This document shows, one piece after another, positions 4,363-35,150 of a stretch of DNA of 54,582 nucleotides. A program made the position numbers and the translations under genes. The notes under the pieces were generated by a model, which worked only from the letters and a program-made list of their open reading frames with translations, did not search any database and was not told where the DNA came from. Positions within the stretch are counted from its first letter, which is position 1. Every line of letters begins with the position of its first letter. Origin of the DNA: Rhodanobacteraceae bacterium (GTDB lineage: Bacteria; Pseudomonadota; Gammaproteobacteria; Xanthomonadales; Rhodanobacteraceae). Where the stretch lies: positions 1-54,582 of the forward strand of contig JAEUPP010000023.1 of the NCBI GenBank assembly GCA_016790075.1, given 5' to 3'.

Positions 4363-4591
4363 CGACATTTCTCCACACCAGGACCGCGCAGCCGCGCACG
4401 CACTGGCGGCAACAGGGTCGCTAGTTTCGATATCCGGGTTTACCGGTGACGAAACGCCGGTACTATCGGTATTCCGGTTGCGTGGGTATTGACCGGTCCT
4501 GACATGCGGGGTGTTGGACAGGAGCGTAGCGAACGCGGGGGCGTCGCTGGCGTCGAGGCGGCAATAGTTGCCGCGGGCACGGGAGGGTGCG

Positions 4592-5365
4592 ATGTACACG
4601 TTTCAGCAAAGCGCCGGCAACGCGTCGGCGGGCGGTATTTCCTTGTCCATGCAGTCGGCTGCATGTGTCGCCGAACGATTGTTCGATTGTGCGCAGGACA
4701 CACTTTTCTTCGTGAAGAATCGCGAGGCGCGCTATGTCGCGGTCAACCATACCCTGGTCGATCATTGTGGCGGGCGCAGCAAGGGGGACCTCATCGGCCG
4801 CACGGCGGAAGAGCTGTTTCCGGAGCCCTATGGCTCGTTCTACTACGCGCAGGACCGGTCCGTACTTGACCAGCGCGTCGAGATCCACGATCGGCTGCAG
4901 CGCGTGCCTCGGGCCGGCCGTGATTCGACATGGTGCATATCAAATAAATTTCCAATAGTAGAAAACAACAGTGTTGTCGGATTGTGCGGAATCTGCCGAA
5001 GCATCAATCCGTCCGACGAAAGCATCAACCGGGTCGCGCGAGCAATCGACTATCTGCAGCAGCATTATGGCGAGACCGTGCGCATAGAGGGGTTGGCGCA
5101 TATCGCCGGGCTCGGTACGCGGCGGCTCGAACGCCTCGTGAAAAAACTGTTCGACCGGACTCCGATGCAATTGCTCGCCCGCGTGCGCATCGAAGCCGCG
5201 GCGCAGTTGCTCGTCGGCGGTGAGGACAGCGTCGCGACGATAGCCAGTGCCTGCGGATATGCAGACCAGAGTGCCTTTACGCGGCAGTTCAAGGCGCTGA
5301 TCGGCGACACCCCACGGAGCTTTCGCGAACGCCGGCGGCGCAGGGCGGCGGTGCAGACGCAGTAG
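4592..5365 (+). CDS. AraC-family transcriptional regulator with N-terminal PAS domain
   Basis: The protein has 257 residues, starting at the ATG at 4592 with GGGAGGG upstream. Residues about 25-135 form a PAS-like sensor (NREARYVAVNHTLVDHCGG, then the GDLIGRTAEELFP stretch). Residues about 150-250 form the AraC/XylS double helix-turn-helix with the family signature ATIASACGYADQSAFTRQFK. It likely binds DNA in response to a small ligand or redox cue sensed by PAS. It lies about 350 bp upstream of, and codirectional with, the candidate metallophore operon, so it may be a local regulator; that is inference from position. AT-rich codons near 4940-4980 differ from the surroundings. Confidence 0.88.
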   Translation: MYTFQQSAGNASAGGISLSMQSAACVAERLFDCAQDTLFFVKNREARYVAVNHTLVDHCGGRSKGDLIGRTAEELFPEPYGSFYYAQDRSVLDQRVEIHDRLQRVPRAGRDSTWCISNKFPIVENNSVVGLCGICRSINPSDESINRVARAIDYLQQHYGETVRIEGLAHIAGLGTRRLERLVKKLFDRTPMQLLARVRIEAAAQLLVGGEDSVATIASACGYADQSAFTRQFKALIGDTPRSFRERRRRRAAVQTQ

Positions 5366-5534: not shown

Positions 5535-5605
5535 CGGGACACGCGCACCAAGGCCAGGACACGCACCAAGGCCAGGACACGCACCAAGGCCAGGACACGC
5601 ACCAG
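5535..5605 (-). repeat. 18-bp tandem repeat array
   Basis: Three near-identical copies of GGCCAGGACACGCACCAA lie at 5552-5569, 5570-5587 and 5588-5605 (last base changed). A degenerate fourth copy precedes them at 5535-5551. Read on the minus strand each unit contains GTGCGTGTCC, close to the GTGGGTGTCC of the array in mreC. Confidence 0.85.
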
Positions 5606-5660: not shown

Positions 5661-5688
5661 TTGTGAACATGAAATGTTATGTTATAAC
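5661..5688 (+). promoter_or_regulatory. predicted sigma-70 promoter of the TonB receptor operon
   Basis: TTGTGA (5661-5666) and TATAAC (5683-5688) are separated by 16 bp, a reasonable -35/-10 pair in otherwise GC-rich DNA. The -10 lies inside the Zur-like palindrome, the usual geometry for repression by a bound zinc sensor. Confidence 0.5.
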
Positions 5689-5693
5689 GTAAC
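5671..5693 (+). promoter_or_regulatory. Zur-box-like operator
   Basis: The 23-bp site has the core GTTATGTTATAAC, an inverted repeat GTTAT/ATAAC. It matches the gammaproteobacterial Zur consensus (GTTATANTATAAC core, flanks GAAAT and ATTTC) at about 18 of 22 defined positions, with the left flank GAAAT exact. Zur is the zinc-sensing Fur-family repressor; it would shut the operon when zinc is plentiful. The site ends 28 bp before the receptor start codon and overlaps the -10 element. A Fur box (GATAATGATAATCATTATC type) does not fit. Confidence 0.65.
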
Positions 5694-5720
5694 TATTCTG
5701 TGTTCAGAGTGGGCAGCTCC

Positions 5721-7940
5721 ATGCGTCTTCGTTTCCGCGACACCCCTGCGGCATTGGTTTGCAGCCTCGCGCCGCTATTGTTTTCTCCGAGCGCGCTTGC
5801 CGGGACCGCTGAGCCGGCAACCGCTATGAAGAGCAAGCCGACGACGACGCTCGACAAGGTCGATGTAACGGCCGCGTCCCGCAGAAAGTCACGGCTGGAT
5901 GCGCCGGCAGAAACAGCTTCGCGGCTGGGATTGAGCGCGCGGGAGACACCGGCCAGTGTTGACCTCCTCACGCAAGAGGACATGCAAGCACGCGGCGCGC
6001 GCAGCACCAACGAGGCTGTTCTTGCCGCGCCCGGAGTAACCGCTGCCAATCTGCCTTCGGCACCCGGCTCCCTGTCCTTGCGGGGGTTCACCGGTGGAGC
6101 GATTTCGCTGTTGTTCGACGGTGTGCGGCAGACGGCTGCGCCGCTGGTCGCGCGGGACTTTGACCTCTGGAGTTTTGAACGGATCGAAGTACTGAAGGGG
6201 CCGGCTTCGGTGCTGTACGGAGAAGGTGCGCTTGCTGGCGCGGTCAATCTGGTGCCGAAGCGTCCGCTACGGGACACCCACCTGATCAGCGGCATGTTGA
6301 GCGGCGGCAGTTTCGGAAGTACCCGGCTGGGATTCGATGCGAACGTCGCGCTCAACACCGATGCCGCGCTGCGGACCGTACTCAGTCACCGTCGCTCCGA
6401 CGGCTATGTCGACGATACGGCCAGCGAGGCCTTTGCCGGCACCTTCAGCGCGAGCTGGCAGCCGCGGGACGATCTGCAGATTGATCTGGCCTATGACCAT
6501 TTTTCCGACGACTATGCCACCGCCTACTGGGGTACGCCCCTGGTCCCGCTGGCCACTGCTCGGAATCCGAGCAGCCTGGTTCGCAGCGCAAATGGACAAG
6601 TTCTCGATCGCGCGCTGCGCAAGGCCAACTACAACGTCGACAACGGCCTGCAGGACGCGGAAAGTGATTGGCTGAGGACCCGGATGTCCCTGCAGATCAG
6701 CGACAGTCTGCGCTTTTCAAATGAACTCAGCGCTGTCGACACGACGCGGCGCTGGCGCAATGCAGAGACGTACACGTTCAACGCTGCAACCGGATTGCTC
6801 GATCGCAGCCTGACCCACATCCAGCACGATCATCAGTACTGGCTGGAGCGCGCCGCGCTCTCGTCCGATACGGAAATCGGTTCCCGCCGCAACCGGTTCA
6901 CGGTGGGTATGGAGCTGAGCAGGAACGATTTCTTCACCGTACGGCGCTTCGGCACTACGACCAGCGTCGATCCTTACCGGCCAATGCGTGGCCTGTTTCC
7001 GCTTGGCGACACATCGGCCATGTTCCCGGGAGCTGGCAACCGGGCGAACTTTGACTCGGCGACGACGGTTCGATCTGTTTTCCTGGAGAACGCGTTCAAT
7101 CTGACGCCGCGCTGGCTGATGCTGGGTGGTGCACGTTATGACCATATCGTCCTGGACCGGTCGGTGCGGGATCTGAATGCGAACACCCTGACCGAGTTCG
7201 ACCGCACCTATCAGCCCCTGTCGTGGCGTGTGGGCACGGTCTTTGAGCTGACGCCTGATGCGCAGCTGTATGCGCAATACAGCGTCGCCAGTGCGCCCGT
7301 CGGCTCGATGCTGCTGATCTCGCTGGCCAATTCGCGCTTCAACCTGACGACAGGCCGTGCTCTGGACGCCGGGCTCAAGATGTCGCTGCTGGATGATCGT
7401 GTTGATTTCACCGTCGGCGGCTACGCGATCCAGCAGGACGACATCATTACCCGTGATCCGGCCAACCCTGCGATCTCCGTTCAAGGGGGAAGGCAGTCCT
7501 CACGCGGACTGGAAGCCGCTGTATCGGCCCGGCTCTCGGAAGCTTTGCGCATCGACGCGAATCTGGCCGTGCTGGACGCGCGATTCGATACCCTGGTCGA
7601 AGCCGGTGGCGCCAACCGCGCAGGCAACACACCGCCCAATGTGCCGCAGCAGATGGCGAGTGTGTTCGCGGCTTACCAGATCAGTGGCACGCCGCTGACC
7701 GTGAGCGCGGGGCTGCGCCACGTTGGGTATTTTTATACAAATAACGCCAATACCATCCGCGTCGGCCGGCATACGGTGTACGACGCGGCCATTGCTTGCC
7801 GGTTGCCGTTCGGTGAGCTGGCGCTGCGTGGCCGGAACCTGTCGGACGCACTGTACGCCGACTGGGCAGGCGGCGCAGCCAGCCAGGTAGTGCTGGGTGC
7901 GCCGCGCAGCGTTGAGCTTGGCCTGACGGTGGCGTTTTGA
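5721..7940 (+). CDS. TonB-dependent receptor, siderophore/metallophore type
   Basis: An outer membrane receptor of 739 residues. The ATG at 5721 opens a signal peptide (MRLRFRDTPAALVCSLAPLL, cut near SALA-GT). A plug domain follows at about 60-170 with familiar landmarks: SVDLLTQEDMQARGA, GSLSLRGF, FDGVRQT and FERIEVLKGPASVLYGEGA, which leads into AGAVNLVPKRP. The rest is a beta-barrel ending in Phe (LGLTVAF), as such barrels do. The plug resembles FhuA-type siderophore receptors. The Zur-like operator directly upstream suggests that the cargo is zinc or a zinc chelate, by inference. Its stop overlaps the start of the ABC ATPase gene, so the transport genes are translationally coupled. Confidence 0.92.
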   Translation: MRLRFRDTPAALVCSLAPLLFSPSALAGTAEPATAMKSKPTTTLDKVDVTAASRRKSRLDAPAETASRLGLSARETPASVDLLTQEDMQARGARSTNEAVLAAPGVTAANLPSAPGSLSLRGFTGGAISLLFDGVRQTAAPLVARDFDLWSFERIEVLKGPASVLYGEGALAGAVNLVPKRPLRDTHLISGMLSGGSFGSTRLGFDANVALNTDAALRTVLSHRRSDGYVDDTASEAFAGTFSASWQPRDDLQIDLAYDHFSDDYATAYWGTPLVPLATARNPSSLVRSANGQVLDRALRKANYNVDNGLQDAESDWLRTRMSLQISDSLRFSNELSAVDTTRRWRNAETYTFNAATGLLDRSLTHIQHDHQYWLERAALSSDTEIGSRRNRFTVGMELSRNDFFTVRRFGTTTSVDPYRPMRGLFPLGDTSAMFPGAGNRANFDSATTVRSVFLENAFNLTPRWLMLGGARYDHIVLDRSVRDLNANTLTEFDRTYQPLSWRVGTVFELTPDAQLYAQYSVASAPVGSMLLISLANSRFNLTTGRALDAGLKMSLLDDRVDFTVGGYAIQQDDIITRDPANPAISVQGGRQSSRGLEAAVSARLSEALRIDANLAVLDARFDTLVEAGGANRAGNTPPNVPQQMASVFAAYQISGTPLTVSAGLRHVGYFYTNNANTIRVGRHTVYDAAIACRLPFGELALRGRNLSDALYADWAGGAASQVVLGAPRSVELGLTVAF

Positions 7941-8665
7941 GCGCTGTGCGGCCGGAGTCGCCTGTACTGCGGCTGCAGGCCGTCACCAAGTCGTTCGCAG
8001 GCCGGCCCGCGGTGGATGAGCTGTCGCTGGAGCTTGCCGCGGGCGAGGTCTATGCGTTGCTCGGCCCCAACGGTGCGGGAAAGACCACGACGTTGAATCT
8101 GATCCTTGGCTTCGATGTGCCGGACAAGGGCACGATCGAGGTCGGTGGCAGTTGTGTGACGCGCGACCCGGTCGCGGTTCGCGCGAGGATGGCCTATCTC
8201 CCGGAAACGGTGATGCTGCATCCGTCGCTCAGTGGAATGGAAAATCTCCACTATTTTTCCCTGCTTGGCGGGACGAGGCTGTGCGCCGCGCAGATGGGCC
8301 GGCTGCTGACGGAGGCCGGGTTGCCGGCCGCTGCGCACAGCCAGCGCACGGCGGTGTACTCCAAAGGCATGCGGCAAAAAGTTGGACTGGCCATCGCCCT
8401 GGCCAAACAGGCGGAATTGCTGCTGCTGGATGAGCCGACTTCAGGTCTGGATGTCAGCGCCGCCAATGAATTCTCGCAGTTGGTGCGCACTGCCTCCGGC
8501 CGCGGTATGGCCGTACTGATGGCGACCCATGACCTCAGCCGCGTTACGGATGTGGCGCATCGCCTGGGTGTGCTGCGAGCCGGGCGGCTGGTGTTCGAGT
8601 CGGCGACGGCGGCGTTGTCGCCGGCAGATCTTGAGGCGTCCTATCTGCGCCAGATCGCGGCATGA
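7937..8665 (+). CDS. ABC transporter ATP-binding protein (ABC-2 type)
   Basis: The protein has 242 residues. The frame starts at a TTG at 7937 that overlaps the receptor stop (TTGA); a GTG at 7946 is the alternative. Walker A is GPNGAGKTT (residues 43-51), the signature is YSKGMRQKVGLAIALA, and Walker B is LLLLDEPTSGLD, followed by the H-loop in LMATHDLS. The YSKGMRQ-type signature is common in ATPases that drive ABC-2 permeases. It should pair with the two permeases that follow without gaps, at the cytoplasmic face of the inner membrane. Confidence 0.93.
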   Translation: MSAVRPESPVLRLQAVTKSFAGRPAVDELSLELAAGEVYALLGPNGAGKTTTLNLILGFDVPDKGTIEVGGSCVTRDPVAVRARMAYLPETVMLHPSLSGMENLHYFSLLGGTRLCAAQMGRLLTEAGLPAAAHSQRTAVYSKGMRQKVGLAIALAKQAELLLLDEPTSGLDVSAANEFSQLVRTASGRGMAVLMATHDLSRVTDVAHRLGVLRAGRLVFESATAALSPADLEASYLRQIAA

Positions 8666-10053
8666 ACTGGCGGCTGCTCCTGCTGGAATTCACGCTGCTG
8701 CGGCGCGAGCGCCGTGTGTGGTGGTCTCTGGTAGCGCTGGCGCTGCTGGTAGTGGGCGCGTGCCTGGTTACCGCGCAGGAGCAGATCCGCGGCAGTGCCG
8801 CCAAGGCGGATATCGCCGCAGCCGAACGCCAGCGCTGGCTCGGTCAGGGGGTCAAGGATCCGCATTCGGCAGCTCACTACAGCATCTATGCACTCAAGAC
8901 CTCGCCGGCACTTTCGCTGCTGGATCCCGGCGTGGACCCGTACGTGGGGCAAGCGGTCTGGCTCGAGGCGCATCATCAGAACGACGGGCTCTATCGCACC
9001 CAAGACGAAGCACCGGTGCTGCAGCGCGAGGGGCTGGCCAATCCTGCCGCGCTGTTGATCAGCATTGCGCCGCTGTTTGCCTTCTTGCTGGCATTCCGTG
9101 CCGTCGCACTGGAAAGGGAACGCGGAACACTGCGCCTTGCACTTGGCGTCGGCACAGCTCCGCTGCGCCTGATTGCCCTCAAGGCCACTGCCTGTGTCGG
9201 TGTGCTGGTGCTGCTGCTGATTGTGCCGGTGGGTCTGCTGGGTGCCGCATTTTGCGTACGGGAGGGCACGTTCTCCACCGATACGACGCTGCGGCTGGCC
9301 CTCTGGTGCATGGCGATGACGGTGTACTTTGTCATCGTGGTCATGATCGGAATGATCGTGGCGGCGCGCATCACGCATGGGCGAGCCGCGCTGGCAACCT
9401 TGTTCGGTCTGTGGACGGTACTGGTGCTGGCCTTGCCACGCTGGGCCAGCGACGCGGTAGCTGTCTCGTGGCCGCTGCCGTCGACCCAGTCCGTGCAGCA
9501 GGCGCTACAGGAACGTGCACCGGCTTACTGGTCGGCTGAGCAAGGCGCGTCACAGCATGCCGCGCTGCTCGCGCGTCACGGCGTCCAGCGCAAGGAAGAC
9601 CTGCCGGTCGATCTGCGTGGAGCGGAGCTGGACATGGCCGAACGGCATTCCCACGACGTGTTCGATGAGGTGCTGGGAGGCTTCTACGACCAGGTCAGCG
9701 AGCAGGATCTGGTGCATTCACTGCTGGGGTGGATTTCGCCGGCGATTGCGATGCAGAGCCTGTCGCCCGCGCTGGTCGGCAGCGACTTCGCCCATCACAG
9801 GGAGTTCATCGACACGGCGGAGCGATACCGCCGCGACCTGGTCAACCGCATGAATGCTGCGGTGATGAAGCCCGTGGCCAGCGCCGGTGCGGCGCAACCG
9901 GCTGGTGATGCGGCGCTGTGGTCGCAGGTTCCCGAGTTCCGCCACTCCAGGCCAGCCCTGTGGACGGCGCCCACGGCGCTGCCGGCGCTTGTCACCTGGC
10001 TGGTCGCGGGCGTGCTCCTGCTTGCGGTCACACTGCGGAGGTTGCGCCCATGA
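8662..10053 (+). CDS. ABC-2 type permease, DUF3526 family (first subunit)
   Basis: The protein has 463 residues; its ATG overlaps the ATPase stop (ATGA). Hydrophobic segments lie near residues 20-40, 130-150, 172-195, 208-235, 240-258 and 438-460. Two large hydrophilic regions lie between the first and second, and between the fifth and sixth segments, as in DUF3526-type ABC-2 permeases. The short ERERGTLRLALG stretch after the second helix is the usual cytoplasmic contact with the ATPase. ABC-2 systems mostly export or act on the envelope, so a place between two TonB receptors is notable. No substrate-binding protein is encoded nearby. Confidence 0.82.
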   Translation: MNWRLLLLEFTLLRRERRVWWSLVALALLVVGACLVTAQEQIRGSAAKADIAAAERQRWLGQGVKDPHSAAHYSIYALKTSPALSLLDPGVDPYVGQAVWLEAHHQNDGLYRTQDEAPVLQREGLANPAALLISIAPLFAFLLAFRAVALERERGTLRLALGVGTAPLRLIALKATACVGVLVLLLIVPVGLLGAAFCVREGTFSTDTTLRLALWCMAMTVYFVIVVMIGMIVAARITHGRAALATLFGLWTVLVLALPRWASDAVAVSWPLPSTQSVQQALQERAPAYWSAEQGASQHAALLARHGVQRKEDLPVDLRGAELDMAERHSHDVFDEVLGGFYDQVSEQDLVHSLLGWISPAIAMQSLSPALVGSDFAHHREFIDTAERYRRDLVNRMNAAVMKPVASAGAAQPAGDAALWSQVPEFRHSRPALWTAPTALPALVTWLVAGVLLLAVTLRRLRP

Positions 10054-11528
10054 ACCGTTGGGGTGCTCTGCTGGTCTGGGAGCTGCGCCAGTTCGCCGGC
10101 AATCCGGTGGCCTGGATCGTATTGGGTCTGCTCGCAGCGGCCATGGCGTGGGGTGCCTGTTCAGGTGCAAGTCTGCATCGCGCCCAGTCGCAGGCGCTGG
10201 CCGTGGAAAGCCAGGCCGACGCGGCCTGGCTGGCGAGCGTGAAGGAAAGGGCGCAGCAGTACACGAGGCCATCCGCCGAGCCTTTGCCCTACTGGCAGGA
10301 TCCCGGCGACGTTGCCGGCTTCAGTCGCTACTTTCTTCGCCGCCATGCGTTCAAGCCGCATCTGCCCCTGTCACCGCTTGCTGTTGGCGTCAGCGATCTG
10401 CAGCCTTCACGCGTCCCGGTCAAGCTGGAGACGCTGTTCGGTATCGCGCCGGTCTACGACTTCGAGCCGCCCCGTGTGCTGATGTCGGGTCGTTTCGATC
10501 TGGGCTTTGTCATCGCGTTCGTGATGCCGGTAGCCATTGTTTTGCTGATCGGTCTGCTCACCACGTTCGAGCGCGATCGCGGCATGTTGCGCCTGGTCGC
10601 CGCGCAGCCGATCTCGCCACGCCGGTGGCTTGGTATACGCGTGTGTTCCATCGCGGCGTGGCTACTGTTGGTGATAGCGCTGATGCTGGGCGGCGCCCTG
10701 TGGCTGGCGGGTGTGGATCCGGCCGCGGCGCCGGTCGAACTGGCGTCAGCCATGGCGCTGGTCCTCGTCTACGCCCTGTTCTGGGTGGCACTGAGTTTCG
10801 CTGTTGTTGCAGCCTGGCCGACGGCCGCCGGTGCGCTGGGCACGCTGGCCGCCATCTGGATTTTGCTGTGCCTGTGCGTACCGCTGCTCGGTTCGGCGAT
10901 TGTGCTCGGCACGGTGCGCGCGCCGTCGGCGCTCTATCGCATCGACGCCCTGCGCCGGGTGACTGACGCCGTCGAGGCGGAACGCCAGGCTGTCCTGGCC
11001 GCTGCCTTCGCCGGCCGCGCCGATCTGGCGCCTCACGCCGGCCAGATCGGCCGTCTGGACTACGCCACCCGACAGACCTTCCTGGTACCTGAGCGCGAAA
11101 GGCGCCTCGCCGCGCAGCAGCACGCCGTGCTGAACGTCAAGGAAACACGTGAGCGGGCCACAACACTGCTCGGGTTCGTTTCGCCTTCGTTGGGCGTCCA
11201 GTCGGCGCTGGCCACCCTGGCGGGTACCGACATGCAGCGGCACCGGCGCTTTGAAAAACAGGTGCGCGATTTCCAGCTTCATCTGCGCGACTTTTTTTTC
11301 TCACGCATCCAGCAGCAGATCGTCGCGCCGACGCCACGCCCTCCAGGCAGTTACTCGCGCCAGAACTTTTCTGAATTCGACGCCATTGCGCACTTCCGCT
11401 TTCAGGATGCCTCGGCAGCGTCGCGCGCAACAGCGGTGTTGCCCGTCACGCTCTGGCTGTTGGCGCTGAGCGTGGGCCTGGTGGGAATAGCCGCGCGGCG
11501 TCTGCGCCGCTGGCCAGCAGACCTGTGA
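10050..11528 (+). CDS. ABC-2 type permease, DUF3526 family (second subunit)
   Basis: The protein has 492 residues from the ATG at 10050, which overlaps the stop of the first permease. It has the same plan as its neighbour: one N-terminal helix (VAWIVLGLLAAAMAWGACSG), a long periplasmic loop with YWQDPGDVAGFSRYFLRRHA, and a helix followed by TFERDRGMLRLVAAQPISPR as the ATPase contact. Three more helices, a second long soluble region (about 300-460) and a final helix follow. The two permeases are diverged paralogues and probably form a heterodimer. An FFFSRIQQQIV segment before the last helix looks amphipathic. Confidence 0.82.
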   Translation: MNRWGALLVWELRQFAGNPVAWIVLGLLAAAMAWGACSGASLHRAQSQALAVESQADAAWLASVKERAQQYTRPSAEPLPYWQDPGDVAGFSRYFLRRHAFKPHLPLSPLAVGVSDLQPSRVPVKLETLFGIAPVYDFEPPRVLMSGRFDLGFVIAFVMPVAIVLLIGLLTTFERDRGMLRLVAAQPISPRRWLGIRVCSIAAWLLLVIALMLGGALWLAGVDPAAAPVELASAMALVLVYALFWVALSFAVVAAWPTAAGALGTLAAIWILLCLCVPLLGSAIVLGTVRAPSALYRIDALRRVTDAVEAERQAVLAAAFAGRADLAPHAGQIGRLDYATRQTFLVPERERRLAAQQHAVLNVKETRERATTLLGFVSPSLGVQSALATLAGTDMQRHRRFEKQVRDFQLHLRDFFFSRIQQQIVAPTPRPPGSYSRQNFSEFDAIAHFRFQDASAASRATAVLPVTLWLLALSVGLVGIAARRLRRWPADL

Positions 11529-11536
11529 GAGCCACG

Positions 11537-13462
11537 ATGCGAATCATTCTGTTGAGTTGTACGCTGCTGTTGTTCGCTCAGCCCGCCACGGCACAGCGCG
11601 CCGGAGACAACGCGGTGACGGCGGCCGAGGATGCCTTTGGCGTGACCCTTGGAAACGAAAGTATTGGCATCTACAGCGCGCGGCGTGTGCGTGGCTTTTC
11701 GCCGGTTGAAGCGGGCAACGTTCGCCTTGAGGGGCTGTACCTGGATCGTCAGGGCGCGTTGCCCCCGCCGTTGGTAGAAGGGTCGGCGATCCGTGTGGGC
11801 TTGTCGGCGCAGGGTTATCCATTTCCCGCTCCTACGGGGATCGTCGACTATCGTTTGCGCAAGCCCGGTGAGGAGCGGGTGATCAGTGTGATTAGCGCCT
11901 GGGGGCCATATGCCGGACGCGCGCTGGAGGTCAATGCCAAGCTGCCGCTGGTTACGGACAAGCTCGGTGTTTCTGCCGCGATTTCGCATTCCCAGGAGGA
12001 GTACTACGACGGGGCTGACGCCGACTATGTCCGGGCCGGGCTCGTTACGCGCTGGCGTCCGACGGAGACGATAGAGATCACGCCGTTCTGGAGTCTTTCC
12101 CGCGGCCGTGATGAAGAAGCGCCGCCGTCGATCCGCACCCGGGGGGCCTTCCTGCCGCCGCGCCTGGAGCGCCGCCGGCTCATGGGGCCATCCTGGGCGG
12201 ACAACGAGACCGAGAGCGTCAACTATGGCGTGATCGCCAAGGCGCGGCTTGGCCATGACTGGGCGTTCGCGCTCGGCGCCTTCAGCTCCCGCTACGAGCG
12301 ATCCAGCGGCTACTCCAACGTGTTTGCCGATACAACGGCGGAAGGCACGGCACGCCACTGGTTGATCGCTGATCCCGAACAGCGTTATGCCTCGACCAGT
12401 GGCGAATTGCGCGCAAGCCGCAGTTTTACCGAGGGGCCACGCCTGCACCTGCTGCACGCAATCGTCCGCAGCCGCCACCTGCAGAGCATTTATGGTGGGT
12501 CGGCCCGGCCGCTGGATCTGGGGCTGCGCCAGCTCACGATGCCGGCAAGTTTTGCGCCTGCGCCGCCGTTCGTGTTTGGCGAGCGCACTCGTGATGTGGT
12601 CCAGCAAAGCAGCGTCGGCATTTCCTACGAAAGCCGGTGGCGTGAGGTGGGCAGCGCCAGCCTGGGCCTGCTGCGCACGCGGTACGAAAAGCGCGTCGAC
12701 CAGCCAGGGCTGGACCGGACTGCTACTCATGATGAACCCTGGCTGGTCAATGCGGCGTTGTCCGCCCATCTGTCGCCCCAGGTTGCCCTATACGCCGGAC
12801 ATACCCGCGGGCTGGAGGAAAGCGGAATTGCTCCGGCCGACGTGGCCAACCGCAACGAGGCGCTGCCGGCGATACGTACGCAGCAAAGCGAGGCCGGTTT
12901 GCGCTGGGCGATTTCACCGTCGATGAAGCTGGTCGCCGGGCTGTTCGATGTACGCAAACCCTACTTCACCACGAACGACAGCGACGTATACACCACCTTG
13001 GGCGAAGTGCAGCATCGCGGGCTGGAATTGAGCCTGAGCGGCAAGCCAGCCGAATCACTGAGCCTGGTCGTGGGCGCCGTGCTGATGCGGCCGCGCGTGA
13101 CTGGCGCAGCGGTTGAATCGGGCAGCATCGGCAACAAGCCGGTTGGGCAGAGTGATCACCTGCTGCGTGCGGACATCGACTACCGCCTGCCGTTCGCACC
13201 ATCCTGGTCGGTGGACTTGTCCACAACCTACAGCGGTGCGCGTACCGCTTCACGTGACGGCAAGAACCGTGTTCCGGCGTATGCCGTGCTCGACATCGGC
13301 GCACGCTACCGATTCCAGATTGGTCCGGCGAAGTCGACCCTGCGCCTGCAGGTTGCCAATGTGTCCGATACCTATGTCTGGAATATCTATGGCAGCAACA
13401 GCTTCGGCCTGAGTGACGAACGTAGGTTCCTCGCCCAGTTGGCGATCGACTTTCCTGAATAG
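11537..13462 (+). CDS. TonB-dependent receptor, second of the operon
   Basis: The protein has 641 residues from the ATG at 11537; a GTG at 11525 overlaps the permease stop and is an alternative start. The signal peptide is MRIILLSCTLLLFAQPATA. A compact plug follows (NVRLEGLYLDRQGAL, then VDYRLRKPGEERV), and then a barrel with aromatic-rich strands. The C-terminus (RFLAQLAIDFPE) lacks the usual final aromatic. The plug is shorter and less canonical than in the first receptor, and no clear TonB box was found. The gene is in the same tight run as the ABC genes. Its cargo may be the product of the biosynthetic genes that follow. Confidence 0.85.
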   Translation: MRIILLSCTLLLFAQPATAQRAGDNAVTAAEDAFGVTLGNESIGIYSARRVRGFSPVEAGNVRLEGLYLDRQGALPPPLVEGSAIRVGLSAQGYPFPAPTGIVDYRLRKPGEERVISVISAWGPYAGRALEVNAKLPLVTDKLGVSAAISHSQEEYYDGADADYVRAGLVTRWRPTETIEITPFWSLSRGRDEEAPPSIRTRGAFLPPRLERRRLMGPSWADNETESVNYGVIAKARLGHDWAFALGAFSSRYERSSGYSNVFADTTAEGTARHWLIADPEQRYASTSGELRASRSFTEGPRLHLLHAIVRSRHLQSIYGGSARPLDLGLRQLTMPASFAPAPPFVFGERTRDVVQQSSVGISYESRWREVGSASLGLLRTRYEKRVDQPGLDRTATHDEPWLVNAALSAHLSPQVALYAGHTRGLEESGIAPADVANRNEALPAIRTQQSEAGLRWAISPSMKLVAGLFDVRKPYFTTNDSDVYTTLGEVQHRGLELSLSGKPAESLSLVVGAVLMRPRVTGAAVESGSIGNKPVGQSDHLLRADIDYRLPFAPSWSVDLSTTYSGARTASRDGKNRVPAYAVLDIGARYRFQIGPAKSTLRLQVANVSDTYVWNIYGSNSFGLSDERRFLAQLAIDFPE

Positions 13463-13479
13463 CCGACACAGGTATTCGT

Positions 13480-14412
13480 ATGGACCGTGCTGAGATCCTC
13501 AATGCTCCGGCGCTGCCCTTTTCCGCGGCATCGGGTTGCCCGCAGTCGCGCCAGCGCATATTCAGCGGTGTATGCCATGGCACGCTCGGCGAGCTGTTGC
13601 AGGGGCCGTTCGTGAGCAACCGCCAGGTATGCATCGGGTTGATCTCGCTGCCCATCAAACGCTACAGCTGGATGCATTTCACGTATGGCGACGACGGTGA
13701 CCTGCTGGTCGATCTGGCCGAGAAGGAGAAGTGCCGCCGGGTGATCGAGCTGTACCTGTCGCGGCATCGCCGGGCGCTTCCACGTGGCCGCTGGAGCTGC
13801 GAGTCGGAGTTGCTGCAGGGCAAGGGCATGGCCAGTTCGACGGCCGACATGGTTGCGACCATACGCTGCCTCGATGCCTTGTTTGGCACCAGCTCGCCGC
13901 ATGCGCTGATTGCAGATCTGCTGCGCCAGGTCGAGCGTTCGGACAGCGTGTTTCTCGACACCTATGCACTGTATCTGAGCGCCCGCCAGAAGGTCATCCG
14001 GTATCTCGGCAGCGAGCTCCAGTTTCACGCCTGCTATATCGACGAAGGCCATGTGGTCGATACCGAGCAGGCAGGCCCTGCGCTGCTGACGTATTACCAG
14101 CAGCATCTGGCGGCCTACCAGCGCAACCTTGATGCAGCGCTGGATGCGTTCCGGCGGCAGGATTCTGCCGCGATCGCACACTGCGCCACGATCAGTGCAC
14201 GGCTCTCCCAGGGGGTTGTTCCGAAGCAGCACCTGGACACCTTGCTCTCGCAGCAGCGCCGCTTCGCCGCGGACGGGATCGTGGTCGCCCATACCGGGAG
14301 CTTGATTGGTTATCTCTTCGTGACGCGGCCCGACCCCGTTCACATGGGCGAGCTGTCGGCCTTCTTCCGCAGCCTCGGCCATCAATGCCGTTTCGCTCAA
14401 ACCGGATTCTGA
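13480..14412 (+). CDS. GHMP-family kinase, PduX-like (predicted L-threonine kinase)
   Basis: The protein has 310 residues. GTLGELLQGP (residues 34-43) is characteristic of PduX-type kinases. GKGMASSTADM (114-124) is the GHMP phosphate-binding loop, and a C-terminal DGIVVAHTGSLIGYLF is the third GHMP motif. PduX phosphorylates L-threonine for the cobalamin side chain, but no cobalamin synthesis genes are present here. The next gene is a cysteine-synthase-like PLP enzyme, which would use O-phosphothreonine as an activated substrate. This pairing is known from 2,3-diaminobutyrate pathways (dab genes of friulimicin). The substrate is inferred from family and context; serine is possible. Confidence 0.82.
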   Translation: MDRAEILNAPALPFSAASGCPQSRQRIFSGVCHGTLGELLQGPFVSNRQVCIGLISLPIKRYSWMHFTYGDDGDLLVDLAEKEKCRRVIELYLSRHRRALPRGRWSCESELLQGKGMASSTADMVATIRCLDALFGTSSPHALIADLLRQVERSDSVFLDTYALYLSARQKVIRYLGSELQFHACYIDEGHVVDTEQAGPALLTYYQQHLAAYQRNLDAALDAFRRQDSAAIAHCATISARLSQGVVPKQHLDTLLSQQRRFAADGIVVAHTGSLIGYLFVTRPDPVHMGELSAFFRSLGHQCRFAQTGF

Positions 14413-14415
14413 GCC

Positions 14416-15489
14416 ATGTTCGAGCACATACATGACCACATCGCCGACGCGGTCAAGTCGCCAAGCCTGATCCAGTTGTCCGGCAATTTATACGTTGCGC
14501 GTTTTGAGACAATGAAGGTCTATTCCACCCTGGTCGCCGTCGAGCAGCTTCTGCACCGGGGGATCGTCAGGCAGGGCGACACACTGCTCGACAGCTCCAG
14601 CGGTATCTATGCCTATGCACTGGCGCTCGCGTGCCACAAGTTCGGCATGAAGTGCCATATCGTGGCATCCAGGACCGTCGACCGCACCCTGATGATCCAG
14701 CTGCAGATACTGGGTGCCACCGTTCAGCAGGTTCCGCCGCAGGCAACCCTGAAGCTGGACCAGAGCTTGCGTGTCGAATTGATTCAGAACCTGCTGCGCT
14801 CCCGCCCCGACATTCACTGGATGCAGCAGTACCACGATGACATTCACTACCTGGGCTATGAACCGGTTGCGGAGATGATTGCCCATGCCCTCGGTACCAG
14901 CCGGCTCAGCATCGTCGGCGGGGTAGGGTCCGGCTGTTCGACGGGAGGCATCGCCGAGTCGCTGCGCAAACTAGACGACACCGTGGAACTGATCGGTGTG
15001 CAGCCGTTCGGCAGCCTTACTTTCGGCTGCGCCCACATTGACGACCCGGGAATCATCATCGCCGGCATTGGCAGCTCCATCCCGTTCCGTAACGTCCGGC
15101 ACGCGTTGTACGACTCGATCCACTGGGTTTCGTTCGACTACGGGCAAGCGGGAACTGTTGATCTCCTGCGCGAGCACGCGATTTTCGCCGGGCTGTCCAG
15201 CGGATGCTGCTACCTCGTGGCCCGGCGGGAGGCAGAGCGGCAGCCTGGGCGGAACATCGTGTTCATGGCGGCCGATACCGGTCACCGGTATGTGGATGGT
15301 GTGTTTTCGCACCATGCCGAAGCGCTCGATTCGCGTGCGCTGCTACCGCTGCAGGCCCACGAGCTGTCGGAGTTGGCGCTGCCGTGGTCGTGCATGGCCT
15401 GGAACCGGCGCCCTTACGGCAGCGATGTCATGCCCGCCGGCGGGCCGCAGGCCATGCCGAACGTGCGCGAAGCCGTGTCCGAAATGTAG
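14416..15489 (+). CDS. PLP-dependent cysteine synthase-like / SbnA-like enzyme
   Basis: The protein has 357 residues and starts 3 bases after the kinase stop. Fold-type II features are readable: Lys34 in FETMKVYSTL as the likely Schiff-base lysine, SSSGIYAYALA in place of the TSGNTG substrate loop, GVGSGCSTGGIAESL as the phosphate-binding loop, and GLSSGCCYLVA near the end. The asparagine loop is altered, so plain cysteine synthesis is unlikely. In SbnA-type enzymes an amine nucleophile replaces the phosphate of O-phosphoserine. With O-phosphothreonine from the previous enzyme the product would be an N-substituted 2,3-diaminobutyrate. That reaction is a prediction. No ornithine cyclodeaminase-like partner (SbnB) is present. 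Confidence 0.82.
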   Translation: MFEHIHDHIADAVKSPSLIQLSGNLYVARFETMKVYSTLVAVEQLLHRGIVRQGDTLLDSSSGIYAYALALACHKFGMKCHIVASRTVDRTLMIQLQILGATVQQVPPQATLKLDQSLRVELIQNLLRSRPDIHWMQQYHDDIHYLGYEPVAEMIAHALGTSRLSIVGGVGSGCSTGGIAESLRKLDDTVELIGVQPFGSLTFGCAHIDDPGIIIAGIGSSIPFRNVRHALYDSIHWVSFDYGQAGTVDLLREHAIFAGLSSGCCYLVARREAERQPGRNIVFMAADTGHRYVDGVFSHHAEALDSRALLPLQAHELSELALPWSCMAWNRRPYGSDVMPAGGPQAMPNVREAVSEM

Positions 15490-15604
15490 CGCGTCGCCAC
15501 GCAGGCGACCGCGGCTGCAGCGATGTACTTGCGCAGGCCGCCTGTCTCCACGAACACCAACACTCAACTCTGTAGTGATCAATACGCTTGCGCTAGGAAA
15601 AAAA

Positions 15605-16867
15605 ATGGCACACCTCCTGATGATCGAAAGCTGGGTCGGTGGTACCGGCCGTCTCTTTCCGCCGGCAATCACCAGCCTCGGCCACCGGTATACCTTTGTG
15701 ACGCGGAATCGCGGCCACTACCTTGATGCGAAAGCCAGGGAAATTCATCCGGTGCTGGAGCACGCGGAAAACGTTCTTACGACGGAAACCAACGATGTGC
15801 CGGCGCTGATCGAATTCCTGCGCCGGCAGCACGGCATTCTGCAATTCGACGGTGTGGTGACGGTGTGTGACTACTACATCGACACCGTTGCACAGGTCGC
15901 TCAGGCCTTGGGGCTGCCACAGGGTTTTTCCACCCATGTTGCGCGGGAGCGACGCAAGGATCTGGTGCGCGAGGCCATTCAGCGTGCTGGCCTGCCCAAT
16001 CCCCGCTTCGGGGTCGTGGCGTCGTGGCATGAAGCCTGCGACGCAGCGCGGGACATCGGTTATCCGCTGGTCATGAAACCGACGGACCTTGCGTCCAGTG
16101 CGTTTGTGCGTCTGGTCCACGATGAGGCCGAGTTGCGTGATGCCTACGAGGCGCTGGAGCGTTTCGACAGGAACTTCCGCGGGCAGCCGCGTGAACGGCG
16201 CTGGCTGCTGGAGGAATACATGACGGGTGAGGAGGTCAGCGTCGAGGCGGTCACGTTCCGTGGCGAAACGACCATCGTCGGTGTTACGGACAAGAGCCTC
16301 ACTGGCTTTCCGTACTTTATCGAAGACGGTCACATGTTCCCTGCTCGTCTTGACCCGGGGCAGGTAGCCGAGATCGAGACCTTGGTCCGGGGCGCACTCG
16401 ACGCCGTCGGCCACGATCACGGCATCAGCCATACCGAAGTAAAGCTCACTGCGGTCGGCCCGCGTATCGTCGAGATCAATCCGCGGCCGGGCGGCAATTA
16501 CATCGCCGAACTGGTGCAGCGGGTGACGGGCATCGATCTGCTGTCAGCTCAGATCGAGCTTGCGCTGGGACGCCGCCCCGACCTGCAGGCAAGAGATACA
16601 GGTATACAAAGTGCGGCAATCAAATTTCTGGTGCCGCCAGCAGCGGGCCGCGTCGTCGCAATGCATGGCCTGGAATCGCTGAACGGCGATGGTCATCTCG
16701 TACGCTCGACGCTGAGTGATGTCACGGGCAGCGAACTTGCCGCGCCGATCGACAATGCCTGCTACCTCGGGCACGTACTGGCCGTCGATAGCGGTGGGCA
16801 TGAAGCGCGACGGCATGCCGAGCAGGCGATTGCCCGCATCGCCCTGCAGTTTGCACCGGCCACCTGA
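15605..16867 (+). CDS. ATP-grasp ligase
   Basis: The protein has 420 residues from the ATG at 15605, with AGGA 7 bases upstream. The first 110 residues form a Rossmann-like preATP-grasp domain. The ATP-grasp core follows with FSTHVARERRKDLVREAIQR, PLVMKPTDLASSAFVRLV, WLLEEYMTGEEVSVEAV and the metal-binding EINPRPGGNYIAEL (Glu290). A C-terminal lobe of about 110 residues resembles that of dapdiamide or bacilysin-type amino acid ligases. Such enzymes form amide bonds through acyl phosphates. Here it would join the PLP enzyme product to another acid or amino acid, making this a non-NRPS assembly; the substrates are unknown. A 115-bp gap precedes it, the only real gap in the operon. Confidence 0.88.
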   Translation: MAHLLMIESWVGGTGRLFPPAITSLGHRYTFVTRNRGHYLDAKAREIHPVLEHAENVLTTETNDVPALIEFLRRQHGILQFDGVVTVCDYYIDTVAQVAQALGLPQGFSTHVARERRKDLVREAIQRAGLPNPRFGVVASWHEACDAARDIGYPLVMKPTDLASSAFVRLVHDEAELRDAYEALERFDRNFRGQPRERRWLLEEYMTGEEVSVEAVTFRGETTIVGVTDKSLTGFPYFIEDGHMFPARLDPGQVAEIETLVRGALDAVGHDHGISHTEVKLTAVGPRIVEINPRPGGNYIAELVQRVTGIDLLSAQIELALGRRPDLQARDTGIQSAAIKFLVPPAAGRVVAMHGLESLNGDGHLVRSTLSDVTGSELAAPIDNACYLGHVLAVDSGGHEARRHAEQAIARIALQFAPAT

Positions 16868-16880
16868 GCGGAGTCCTTGC

Positions 16881-17705
16881 ATGAATCACCTCACCACCGT
16901 GCCACCTGCCTCTATCGACGGTCTGATCAGCGCCGTCCGCGAGGGCCGATATGGCACCGATCCCGCCGCGCTGCATGCCGTCGGCGCATTCTGGGTGCGG
17001 CAGAGCACCCAGTTTCCCGGTACGGTGCAGAAGTACCGGAATTACTACCTCGTGCTTCGGGTTGGCGCGAACTTCGGCGGATGTTGCGTCGAACGCGACG
17101 ATCTGGATTCCGCGGTCGCTGAGGAACTGTCCGGGAGCAGCGTTGCTGACTTGCTCGGCGATCAGCGATTGCCAGTACGCATAGCGGCGCTGGATGCCTA
17201 CCTGGGGGCGGTGCGGCCGCATCGCGAAGCCACGAACGCGCGCGTGAAGTTGCTGCCGCACGGTACGCCGCTGGAGCGCGCCCGGGTGCGCGACGAGGCG
17301 ATCGCAAGCCTACTGGCGATAGAACGTGGACAGCGGGTTGCGTTGATCGGTGTCGTCAATCCGCTGGTGGAGGCTATCCGTTCGCATGGCGGCATCTGCC
17401 TGCCCTGTGACTTCAACATGGAGCGGACGGCCGACGGCACCCCGGTAACCCGGGACATGCAGCAGGTGCTGGATGCGGCGGACCTGGTCATCGCCACTGG
17501 CATGACGCTGAGCAATGGATCCTTCGACCGCATTCTCGCCCGGTGCCGCCAGCGGGAGATTCCGCTGGTCGTATACGCGCAGACGGGCAGCGCCATCGTG
17601 CCGTGTTTCCTCGGCAGCGGCGTTTCGGCGATTTCTGCGGAGCCGTTTCCGTTTTCCCAGTTCAGTGCGGATCCGACGCCCATCTATCTCTACCGCTTGC
17701 CATGA
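16881..17705 (+). CDS. DUF4213/DUF364 protein (putative heavy-metal chelation family)
   Basis: The protein has 274 residues, with GGAG about 8 bases before the ATG at 16881. The N-terminal 100 residues fit DUF4213 (YYLVLRVGANFGGCCVE, then a LPVRIAALDAYLGA helix). Residues about 145-270 fit the DUF364 Rossmann-like domain: VALIGVVNPLVEAIRSHGG, then DAADLVIATGMTLSNGSFD, then QTGSAIVPCFLGSGVSAIS. Pfam labels this family putative heavy-metal chelation, and no enzymatic role is firmly established. Linked members often sit with metal-uptake genes. Here it may handle the metal, release it from the ligand, or take part in ligand synthesis. Its stop overlaps the start of the MFS gene. Confidence 0.8.
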   Translation: MNHLTTVPPASIDGLISAVREGRYGTDPAALHAVGAFWVRQSTQFPGTVQKYRNYYLVLRVGANFGGCCVERDDLDSAVAEELSGSSVADLLGDQRLPVRIAALDAYLGAVRPHREATNARVKLLPHGTPLERARVRDEAIASLLAIERGQRVALIGVVNPLVEAIRSHGGICLPCDFNMERTADGTPVTRDMQQVLDAADLVIATGMTLSNGSFDRILARCRQREIPLVVYAQTGSAIVPCFLGSGVSAISAEPFPFSQFSADPTPIYLYRLP

Positions 17706-18913
17706 ACGTTGTAGGCGTCGATTCCCTGCCGGAGCGTGGCCAGCGACGCACGCTCAATGGCCTGCTCGTGTATACCTTTTTTATGGTCGTCGGCTTTTCC
17801 ATGCTGATGCCGCTGGTCGCCGTGCATTTTGTGAACAACCTCGGCCTGGCCGCGGCTGCCGTCGGTCTGGCGCTGGCGGTACGCCAGTTTGCGCAGCAGG
17901 GGCTGGCCGTGGTCGGTGGGGCATTGTCGGATCGTTTCGGTGTGCGCCCCATGATCTGCCTGGGTGTGCTGCTGCGGGCCGCGGGTTTCGCCAGCCTCGC
18001 CTTCGCCCATACGTTGCCGATGCTGTTTGTCGGGATGCTGGTTTCGGCACTGGGGGGGGCGCTGTTTGAAGCCCCTTACCAGGCCTCGATCGCCGCGCTG
18101 ACGACGGAGCAGACCCGGGCGCGTTACTACGCAGTCAGCAACTGGGTCAGTGGCGTGGCTTCCACCGTCGGGCCACTGCTGGGTGTCTTCCTGCTGCGTT
18201 TTGATTTCCAGCTCGTCTGCCTGGCCGCAGCGGCCTGTTTCGTCCTGAACTTTGCTATCGCGCGGTGGTTGCTGCCTGCCGTCAGCATGCCGGCACAGCC
18301 GCCAGCTTTGAGTCATGGCGTGGGGCTGGTGGTGCGTGACCGCGCCTTCATGACGCTGGTTGTGCTGATGATGGCTTATTGGATCTGCGCGGTGCAGATC
18401 AATCTGACGTTTCCCCTGCTGGCGCAGCAACTGACCGGCAGCACTGACAGCGTCGGCGTGATGTTCGCCCTGAGCGCCGGCCTGACGGTTGTGCTGCAGA
18501 TTCCGCTGGTCCGGCTGCTGGAACAATGGCTGAGTTCAGCCCAGATCCTCGTGCTGGGCGCGACACTCATGGCGCTCGGAACCGGAGCGATTGGCTTCGT
18601 GCACACGTTTGCCTCGTTCCTGCTTTGCGTTGCTGTCGTTGCTGTTGGTGCGGTGATGACTCGGCCGACGCAGCAGGCACTGATCGCACGCATGGCGAAC
18701 CCACAGGCGCTCGGCACCTTTCTCGGCGTAAGTTCGCTCAGCCTCGCGGTTGGTGGTGGCATCGGCAATATCGTCGGCGGCCTGCTGTTTGATCTGGCGG
18801 CGCGGCAGAACGTGCCACTGCTGCCGTGGCTGGTTTTTGCGGCCGTTGGGCTGGCCAGTGCGCTGGGCCTGCATCTGCTCACGCGTTCACAGCCGGCGCC
18901 CGTCGTCACTTGA
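17702..18913 (+). CDS. MFS transporter, predicted exporter (MdtH-like)
   Basis: The protein has 403 residues in about twelve membrane segments; its ATG overlaps the DUF364 stop (ATGA). Motif A appears as GGALSDRFGVRP after the second helix. The layout (two halves of six helices, short loops, NWVSGVASTVGPLLGVFLL in helix five) resembles drug or siderophore exporters of the MdtH/EntS type. As the last gene of a biosynthetic run it most likely secretes the small molecule made by the kinase, PLP enzyme and ligase; import of the complex back into the cytoplasm is the alternative. Confidence 0.88.
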   Translation: MNVVGVDSLPERGQRRTLNGLLVYTFFMVVGFSMLMPLVAVHFVNNLGLAAAAVGLALAVRQFAQQGLAVVGGALSDRFGVRPMICLGVLLRAAGFASLAFAHTLPMLFVGMLVSALGGALFEAPYQASIAALTTEQTRARYYAVSNWVSGVASTVGPLLGVFLLRFDFQLVCLAAAACFVLNFAIARWLLPAVSMPAQPPALSHGVGLVVRDRAFMTLVVLMMAYWICAVQINLTFPLLAQQLTGSTDSVGVMFALSAGLTVVLQIPLVRLLEQWLSSAQILVLGATLMALGTGAIGFVHTFASFLLCVAVVAVGAVMTRPTQQALIARMANPQALGTFLGVSSLSLAVGGGIGNIVGGLLFDLAARQNVPLLPWLVFAAVGLASALGLHLLTRSQPAPVVT

Positions 18914-34191: not shown

Positions 34192-35150
34192 CACGTGGTT
34201 TCGTCCTGCTGCTCGCCGCCGCGCTGCTGGCCGGCTGTGGCGGGAAAAAAACGCACAGGGCTGCGCCGCCTGTAGCGACGCGCCCGCCGCCGGCCAGCAC
34301 GGCGCCTGGATCTGCCTCCGCCGTGCCAGAAACCAGCCTCAGTCAGGCCGAACGCTATCGCCAGACCCAGGACGACGGTCCGCGTGAGGCCATCGATGTC
34401 AGCCGTATCGAGGAACCCGAACCAAAAAGCGAGCCGCTGTCACGCTACGGCAATCGTTCGCCTTACAGCGTGCTCGGGCGCACTTACGAGGTGTTGCCGA
34501 CTGCACGCGGTTATGTCGAGCGCGGCATCTCCTCGTGGTATGGCAACAAGTTCCACGGTTACATGACGTCGAGTTTTGAGCCTTATGACATGTATAAATT
34601 TACCGCGGCGCACAAGTCGTTGCCGCTGCCGAGCTGGGCGCGTGTGACCAATCTGGAGAACGGCAAGAGTGTGGTTGTGCGTGTCAACGACCGCGGGCCG
34701 TTTCATGAGAACCGGCTTATCGATCTTTCCTATGCTGCAGCGGTCAAGATCGGAGTCTGGCCCAAGGGTACGGGGCTGGTCGAGGTGCGTGCGTTGATGC
34801 CAGGCGAGATCGAGCCCGAGGCGCGGGTGGCGGCTACTGTTTCGCCTCCATCACAAAGGGCCAAGCCGGTTGCGACGCCGCGCTCGGCGCCAGCGGGTAC
34901 GGCGGCGGTAGTGCAGCCACGCATTTATCTGCAGGTCGGTGCGTTTGGCGAGCAGTCCAACGCCGAGCGCGCGGCGCAGCGTGTTGCCGCGGCGCAGTTG
35001 GGTGAGGTCCGTGTGGTCGAGGCTTCGGTCAATGGCCGCAGCGTACGGCGTGTAAGGCTGGGTCCGCTGCGCGACGTGGATGAAGCGGACCGTCTGGCCC
35101 AGGAGTTGCGCCGTCTCGGCCTCGGCGAGCCGCGGGTGGCGATTGACTGA
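34188..35150 (+). CDS. rlpA: septal ring lytic transglycosylase RlpA (lipoprotein)
   Basis: The protein has 320 residues from a GTG that overlaps the mltB stop. The lipobox LLAGC near residue 17 follows a short hydrophobic stretch. The double-psi beta-barrel (about 105-195) carries ISSWYGNKFHGYMT and VVVRVNDRGPFHENRLIDLS, with the catalytic-type Asp. A SPOR domain ends the protein (IYLQVGAFGEQSNAERAAQR to the end) and binds denuded glycans. RlpA cleaves naked glycan strands. Confidence 0.94.
   Translation: MTRGFVLLLAAALLAGCGGKKTHRAAPPVATRPPPASTAPGSASAVPETSLSQAERYRQTQDDGPREAIDVSRIEEPEPKSEPLSRYGNRSPYSVLGRTYEVLPTARGYVERGISSWYGNKFHGYMTSSFEPYDMYKFTAAHKSLPLPSWARVTNLENGKSVVVRVNDRGPFHENRLIDLSYAAAVKIGVWPKGTGLVEVRALMPGEIEPEARVAATVSPPSQRAKPVATPRSAPAGTAAVVQPRIYLQVGAFGEQSNAERAAQRVAAAQLGEVRVVEASVNGRSVRRVRLGPLRDVDEADRLAQELRRLGLGEPRVAID

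Follow-up and report, generated by a model that had tools for sequence, protein, structure and literature searches.

A putative Zur-controlled metallophore operon joining a kinase, a pyridoxal-phosphate enzyme, an ATP-grasp ligase and a DUF364 protein in a Rhodanobacteraceae bacterium

Introduction

Few types of zincophore have been described. One of them, [S,S]-ethylenediaminedisuccinate (EDDS) of Amycolatopsis japonicum, is described as a Zur-controlled zinc chelator made by neither a typical non-ribosomal peptide synthetase (NRPS) pathway nor an NRPS-independent siderophore (NIS) pathway (PMC4993170, PMC9252823). Amino acid adducts are formed by cysteine-synthase-like enzymes dependent on pyridoxal 5'-phosphate (PLP). 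SbnA joins O-phosphoserine to glutamate, and SbnB is then needed to release diaminopropionate, while aspergillomarasmine synthase joins O-phosphoserine to aspartate without release of free diaminopropionate and gives products that chelate metal (PMC12751119). antiSMASH 7 is described as having rules that detect metallophores of the aminopolycarboxylic acid and opine-like kinds (PMC10320115). The system considered here is a ten-gene operon on contig JAEUPP010000023.1 of a Rhodanobacteraceae bacterium (assembly GCA_016790075.1, a 5.6-Mb draft genome estimated as 95.65% complete); the window that was analyzed is the whole contig, 54,582 nucleotides.

The operon is probably a complete, Zur-repressed metallophore system that depends on neither NRPS nor IucA/IucC enzymes, and for which a chemistry, an export route and a re-uptake route can be proposed from the genes. 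The metallophores of its family are probably for the most part under Zur control, and the product is probably an amino-acid-derived chelator. An earlier note on this DNA, drawn from the sequence alone, had called the locus a candidate zinc-regulated metallophore operon; a metallophore operon under Zur is well supported by the sequence comparisons described below, and a ligand for zinc alone is doubtful in view of four Massilia clusters.

Layout of the operon

The ten genes lie on the forward strand between positions 5,700 and 18,913 (open reading frame coordinates), and the codirectional order and the gene families named in the earlier note were recovered with Pfam and NCBIfam. The gene ends had been described as overlapping or nearly touching, which is true of eight of the nine junctions, five with 4-base overlaps and three with gaps of 3, 13 and 17 bases. 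It is not true of the remaining one, where 115 bases separate the stop of the PLP enzyme gene (15,489) from the ATG of the ATP-grasp gene (15,605); a scan of this gap and its surroundings found no promoter-like site. The ten proteins contain no NRPS adenylation or condensation domain (Pfam) and no IucA/IucC synthetase domain (Pfam, NCBIfam), and none of them matched a nicotianamine-synthase-like enzyme or an opine dehydrogenase (Pfam, NCBIfam).

Zur motifs ahead of the operon and its relatives

The palindrome GAAATGTTATGTTATAACGTAAC stands directly ahead of the first start codon of the operon, and a 20-mer overlapping it agrees at 19 of 20 positions with the Escherichia coli Zur motif TRWNAYRWTATAWYRTNWCA (PMC6103462). 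At this stringency, ten Markov resamples of the window contained no match. A published motif was used after one first derived from the genome's own site had been dropped as circular. A 15-mer form, TGTTATNNTATAACA, was likewise dropped for genome-wide use: with up to two mismatches it gave 18 control and 11 real matches in this genome, and control matches also exceeded real ones in six of 13 genomes (four Massilia, Exilibacterium and Aliikangiella).

Both sequence marks of a Zur regulon are present here: its motif lies in the operon promoter region, and the same genome encodes a Zur-like protein. The Zur-like protein scores 140.7 bits with NF008646, below the cut-off of 167, and the next Fur model reaches only 45 bits. 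With up to two mismatches the E. coli motif occurs at three separate places in the genome; the operon box is the best (one mismatch), and the other two (two mismatches each) are the promoter of a ZnuD-like receptor and an AT-rich site. The receptor, whose best model is NF038289 (434.8 bits; cut-off 950), lies with MerC and ZitB-like genes within about 9 to 13 kb of the Zur-like gene on one contig (locus L026, 2,336–15,331), and its box is situated between the receptor and MerC genes. A ZnuA-family protein was not found in this genome at its 95.65% completeness, so that the host would benefit from another way of obtaining zinc.

Recurrence of a Zur motif upstream of the gene set had been fixed beforehand as a check, and such motifs do recur ahead of it in two phyla. 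In the Lysobacteraceae, the promoters lay outside the loci first fetched and were retrieved through the first TonB receptor from six of the seven genomes that share the ten-gene order (L029 left out). The exact E. coli motif was present upstream of this receptor gene in all six operons. None of three paralogous TonB receptor loci had the motif at up to two mismatches, and the reversed sequence of these nine loci gave no match. Across each complete set of contigs (4.5–6.3 Mb), the exact motif occurred in one place per genome, always the promoter of this operon, 89–232 bases outside the match to the first receptor; a control pattern gave none. In three further gammaproteobacterial loci (L043, L044 and L045), a box with zero, two and one mismatches, respectively, is located between divergent kinase and ATP-grasp genes; the reversed-sequence control gave one match, at two mismatches, in L043.

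The actinobacterial Zur motif TGANAANNNTTNTCA, the center of a computed motif (PMC5472717), was found with at most one mismatch in 50 of 70 Actinomycetota loci (56 matches; none in the reversed sequence). Within the 61 of these loci that come from genome contigs, the stretches reaching 350 bases upstream from cluster-type genes account for 13.4% of the DNA and hold 42 of 53 matches; a single Markov resample contained no match. The placement of two unlike Zur motifs ahead of the same genes in two phyla is the strongest single argument for zinc, and the predicted zinc control of the operon is well supported by sequence. With a single exact motif in each, the six Lysobacteraceae genomes show an unusually clean form of the predicted control, which makes the idea directly testable there.

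Distribution and conservation of the gene set

Searching genome contigs with an alignment of six DUF364 sequences yielded at least 512 relatives confirmed by tblastn, the best 80 of which were kept as loci. Genes were counted anywhere in a locus, by profiles for the enzymes and the major facilitator superfamily (MFS) transporter and by tblastn for transport genes and argH; many loci end at contig ends. The co-occurrence that the earlier note had proposed to look for, and whose absence from other genomes it had named as refuting its reading, is borne out, with the PLP enzyme in 77 of the 80 loci, the MFS transporter in 78, the GHMP kinase in 51 and the ATP-grasp ligase in 20. At least two of the 20 ATP-grasp genes (L077 and L102) are on the opposite strand, away from the cluster, and in the three loci that lack the PLP gene (L034, L077 and L095) the cluster is at a contig end. 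Importer-type genes (FecCD, Nik/Opp, ABC-2 or TonB) are present in 71 of the 80.

The complete ten-gene order is repeated in seven loci (L028–L032, L035 and L036, the first TonB gene being cut by the locus edge), all Lysobacter by title except L032, a Lysobacteraceae bin. A closely similar arrangement, in which one TonB gene is divergent, is found in four Massilia loci. Two kinase-less actinobacterial loci that were checked, L058 and L060, have another open reading frame between the PLP and DUF364 genes. In L058 (Kribbella, 9,189–9,992) it encodes a PhyH-type 2-oxoglutarate oxygenase (Pfam), which suggests a hydroxylated product variant; the one in L060 is similar by appearance only.

Nine plasmid records contain a DUF364 relative by tblastn, and five were examined. 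Three, from Streptomyces and Tsukamurella, have a DUF364 gene whose neighbors encode a kinase of the GHMP type, a PLP enzyme, an MFS transporter and metal-chelate ATP-binding cassette (ABC) proteins. In the other two (Streptomyces angustmyceticus and Rhodococcus) it accompanies ATP-grasp, PLP, dipeptide epimerase, MFS, methyltransferase and Nik/Opp-like ABC genes.

Closer to the host, the distribution is patchy. Among 61 relatives searched, the DUF364 gene was found in the genome itself, in two of seven others of the genus and as one weak distant match; a kinase search of 369 genomes of the class returned only this genome and one distant match (32% identity). The idea that the gene set is unique to this genome was overturned by the DUF364 searches, which place the family in the Pseudomonadota, Actinomycetota, Chloroflexota and one Acidobacteriota bin. 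Named strains of Lysobacter, Massilia, Streptomyces and Kribbella are among the carriers. In a DUF364 tree of 86 rows (one for the window, 80 for the loci kept and five for plasmid loci), which carries long-branch warnings, the window is placed with L027 inside a group of Pseudomonadota that also takes in a single Acidobacteriota row (98/92), and another branch (99/91) has all 61 Actinomycetota rows on one side. This topology argues for an old family rather than a recent jump between phyla.

There is an even chance that the operon belongs to a cross-phylum, undescribed class of zincophore clusters with a core of GHMP kinase, SbnA-like PLP enzyme and DUF364 protein, in which ATP-grasp, methyltransferase, epimerase and PhyH oxygenase genes would be tailoring variants. 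The ligand would be an uncleaved aminopolycarboxylate or a short peptide, and DUF364 a dedicated metallophore enzyme. If true, this would add one more zincophore type, spread over several phyla.

Proposed pathway

In the scheme that follows, the gene content, its conservation and the placement of the box are observed; we infer all the chemical steps, the direction of transport, the metal and the zinc response. When zinc is low, Zur would leave its box and all ten genes would be transcribed. The GHMP kinase would activate a hydroxy amino acid, presumably threonine or serine, as a phosphate. The AlphaFold2 model of this protein (pLDDT 91.9) is matched best in Foldseek by mevalonate kinases (E 1.4e-12); profile and structure searches scored no PduX model or structure and confirmed only the GHMP family and fold. 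The 2,3-diaminobutyrate core proposed in the earlier note presupposes threonine as the substrate, and serine or another hydroxy amino acid may serve instead.

The PLP enzyme would exchange this phosphate for the amino group of another amino acid, probably a dicarboxylic one, to judge from SbnA and aspergillomarasmine synthase. Its best named NCBIfam model is the SbnA equivalog TIGR03945, at 127.3 bits far below the cut-off of 349.95. The catalytic lysine is retained in an alignment, in the segment RFETMKVYS, whose counterpart in the SbnA-like proteins encoded by L162 and L163 is NPGGSMKDRS. The resulting aminopolycarboxylate adduct would be kept uncleaved as the chelating core, since the argininosuccinate-lyase-type enzyme of related kinase-PLP pairs is absent.

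In the proteobacterial version, the ATP-grasp ligase would couple a further amino acid. It is similar to the L-amino acid ligase of PDB entry 3vot (E 3.9e-25), and it matches the model PRK02186, named argininosuccinate lyase, over the ATP-grasp third and over nothing of the lyase. The DUF364 protein would carry out a further step, in synthesis or in handling of the metal complex. The earlier assignment to DUF4213/DUF364 can be kept in its second half, given the PF04016 match and the best structural matches; a DUF4213 model did not score at E 0.001 (Pfam). For a predicted model of the protein (pLDDT 93.2), Foldseek ranks 1–6 are all 3npg and 3l5o, with TM-scores of 0.55–0.61 by query length at 12–15% identity; other listed matches reach at most 0.39. 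Fold searches with the kinase and the DUF364 protein returned GHMP and DUF364 folds only and revealed no substrate.

Export of the ligand would fall to the MFS protein, which resembles MdtH (NCBIfam) and is likely an exporter because the gene is found with both importer types. The two TonB receptors and the ABC-2 set would take up the zinc complex again, standing where actinobacterial clusters have ABC importers of the FecCD or Nik type; it is this shared position, in the Gram-negative form, that suggests the ABC-2 set may import.

Deviating loci and alternative explanations

Several observations weigh against a zinc-specific metallophore under Zur. At the head of the operon, a simple sigma-70 scan found no promoter hexamers, so that of the promoter overlapping a Zur-box-like palindrome predicted earlier only the box is retained. 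This box has one mismatch to a motif that was defined in E. coli. At up to two mismatches the genome holds four forward and three reverse matches, seven in all, compared with five (two and three) for the motif read backwards, a count not above chance; the argument from this genome therefore rests on the one-mismatch site and its placement. Elsewhere, 20 of the 70 actinobacterial loci, some of them incomplete, have no Zur motif at up to one mismatch, the Acidobacteriota bin L033 has no box at up to two, and 29 of the 80 DUF364 loci lack the kinase. The ABC-2 set could also export rather than import. All four Massilia loci are without the Zur motif and have another palindromic box, GATAATAAGTTCTCATTATC, at the operon head, with a second, related box beside the kinase gene. 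In the only one that was read, L037, a Fur-family gene (6,184–6,660) separates the permease gene from that of the kinase, and boxes of the GATAAT/ATTATC type are close by; the Fur and PerR models score best with its product and the Zur model poorly, all below cut-off.

The operon-head box of Massilia differs from the Zur motif in sequence. Labeling these boxes Fur-like was given up: a 19-bp Fur consensus is more than six mismatches from the operon-head box in all four loci and matched the second boxes once, with five mismatches. The two Herpetosiphon loci have a repeated element of unassigned kind.

One alternative is a general or iron metallophore, with Zur control in the present lineage as local wiring. 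The regulator gene and boxes of Massilia are consistent with it, as are the actinobacterial importers, which are often of FecCD type, and the opine metallophores, reported to bind iron, copper, cobalt and nickel too (PMC7438024). By analogy with that breadth, the ligand may be a broad metallophore whose regulation was rewired between lineages; since the Massilia clusters have another box in place of the Zur motif, the metal may vary between lineages. The recurrence of Zur motifs in two phyla whose Zur boxes differ argues the other way. A general or iron ligand is unlikely.

A second alternative would have the cluster belong to, or be homologous with, the EDDS (aes) aminopolycarboxylate clusters of Amycolatopsis, in which case the family would be known already by a different name. 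EDDS shares the Zur control and the absence of a typical NRPS or NIS pathway, and DUF364 clusters are present in three Amycolatopsis loci (L080, L086 and L105). EDDS assembly uses an argininosuccinate-lyase-like enzyme. A tblastn search for the lyase gene argH found it in none of the 80 DUF364 loci, no SbnB-type enzyme scored among the ten window proteins (NCBIfam), and the partial match to PRK02186 leaves out the lyase. SbnA-like paralogues were also searched in eight actinobacterial genomes for EDDS genes, and three regions were examined. L162 and L163, with an SbnA-like gene followed by an SbnB-like gene and no Zur motif, were not accepted as EDDS loci; from reading of the open reading frames alone, they look staphyloferrin-B-type. 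Membership of the EDDS family is improbable.

It is very unlikely that the product is an antimetabolite or antibiotic peptide, such as dapdiamide or bacilysin, built from a diamino acid by an amino-acid ligase with the TonB and ABC genes for self-protection. In favor of such a product, the ligase resembles BacD and BL00235, the MFS protein is MdtH-like and related kinase-PLP-ATP-grasp trios occur in clusters without a detected metal importer; against it stand the Zur boxes and the importer-type genes in most DUF364 loci. Homology to a pathway unrelated to metals, named in advance as a sign against the metallophore, may be seen in part, in lyase-bearing trios with no importer found, and is separated from the DUF364 loci by their uniform lack of the lyase.

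Features of the window

TABLE 1. Zur box and genes of the operon, in window coordinates.
Feature	Position	Strand	Basis and remarks
Zur box	5671..5694	+	23-bp palindrome, 5671–5693; 20-bp motif, 5675–5694; 5 bases ahead of GTG start at 5700
TonB-dependent siderophore-type receptor 1, 746 aa	5700..7940	+	PF00593, PF07715; TIGR01783, 231.3 bits (cut-off 223.5)
ABC transporter ATPase, 242 aa	7937..8665	+	PF00005
ABC-2 / DUF3526 permease 1, 463 aa	8662..10053	+	PF12040, PF12679
ABC-2 / DUF3526 permease 2, 492 aa	10050..11528	+	PF12040
TonB-dependent receptor 2, 645 aa	11525..13462	+	PF00593 only; no Pfam plug match
GHMP kinase, presumed amino-acid kinase, 310 aa	13480..14412	+	PF00288; AlphaFold2 model; Foldseek
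Fold-type-II PLP enzyme, SbnA/cysteine-synthase-like, 357 aa	14416..15489	+	PF00291; best NCBIfam model SbnA, under cut-off
ATP-grasp ligase with L-amino-acid-ligase C-terminal domain, 420 aa	15605..16867	+	PF13535, PF18603; PDB 3vot
DUF364 protein, 274 aa	16881..17705	+	PF04016, 47.1 bits (cut-off 23); predicted structure
MFS transporter, presumed ligand exporter, 403 aa	17702..18913	+	PF07690

An AraC-type regulator with a PAS domain is encoded just ahead of the operon and in the same direction (4,568–5,365); some AraC-type regulators sense siderophores. Between this gene and the Zur box, an 18-bp unit is perfectly repeated in tandem, in 3.4 copies (5,544–5,604). Farther away, an open reading frame for a ribonucleotide reductase large subunit (48,916–52,296) matches a LAGLIDADG domain and intein-splicing models and appears to carry an intein. 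ARAGORN calls a tRNA-Cys with the odd anticodon aca at 34,232–34,304, possibly a false or degenerate tRNA.

Comparison with known systems

No description of this gene set was found in the open-licence literature, which is weak evidence with most subscription papers outside that scope; DUF364 or DUF4213 is named there in seven papers. Nearest in logic is EDDS, a zinc chelator under Zur with no typical NRPS or NIS enzymes (PMC4993170). The combination of kinase, ATP-grasp ligase and DUF364 protein does not appear in the descriptions of EDDS consulted, so the operon is set apart from it by description and not gene by gene. EDDS is hence the main caution to the view that the operon forms a class of its own, for which there is a real chance.

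With the opine-like zincophores staphylopine, pseudopaline, yersinopine and bacillopaline, the operon shares the transport scheme, which in the available account comprises exporters of the MFS or EamA class, ABC importers of the Opp or FecCD type and TonB receptor genes (PMC7438024); a presumed MFS exporter together with TonB and putative ABC import genes is present here. The biosynthetic enzymes differ, as those of the opine-like group are a nicotianamine-synthase-like enzyme and an opine dehydrogenase. SbnA of staphyloferrin B and aspergillomarasmine A synthase are cysteine-synthase-like PLP enzymes, as is that of the window, which differs from SbnA in its score, in its lysine loop, in having a kinase of its own and in having no SbnB partner among the ten proteins.

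Homologous trios of kinase, PLP enzyme and ATP-grasp ligase, in the same order as in the window, occur in Sulfuriferula (L023), Azospirillum (L024) and Mesorhizobium (L025). They differ in the presence of an argininosuccinate lyase, fused to the ATP-grasp ligase in L025, and in having no match to DUF364 or to the importer queries. Acting on an adduct with aspartate, the lyase could release the diamino acid. On the Sulfuriferula plasmid (L023, 6,960–17,759), the kinase-PLP-ATP-grasp-argH set is beside an acyl-homoserine-lactone synthase gene, and its product is perhaps quorum-controlled.

The solved DUF364 (PF04016) proteins Dhaf4260 (3L5O) and PH1506 (3NPG) are the best structural matches to that of the window. 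In the paper on the first of them, condensation or hydrolysis in metal-chelator synthesis was proposed, partly from genome context, and a function in heavy-metal chelation was predicted (PMC2954201), a proposal that fits the role suggested here without proving one. The family is annotated as "putative heavy-metal chelation" and had its first structure in print in 2010. The operon provides a concrete context in which to seek its function; it is, as far as could be found, the first placement of DUF364 in a defined kinase-PLP metallophore cluster and, if the pathway is as proposed, would give the family its first pathway role.

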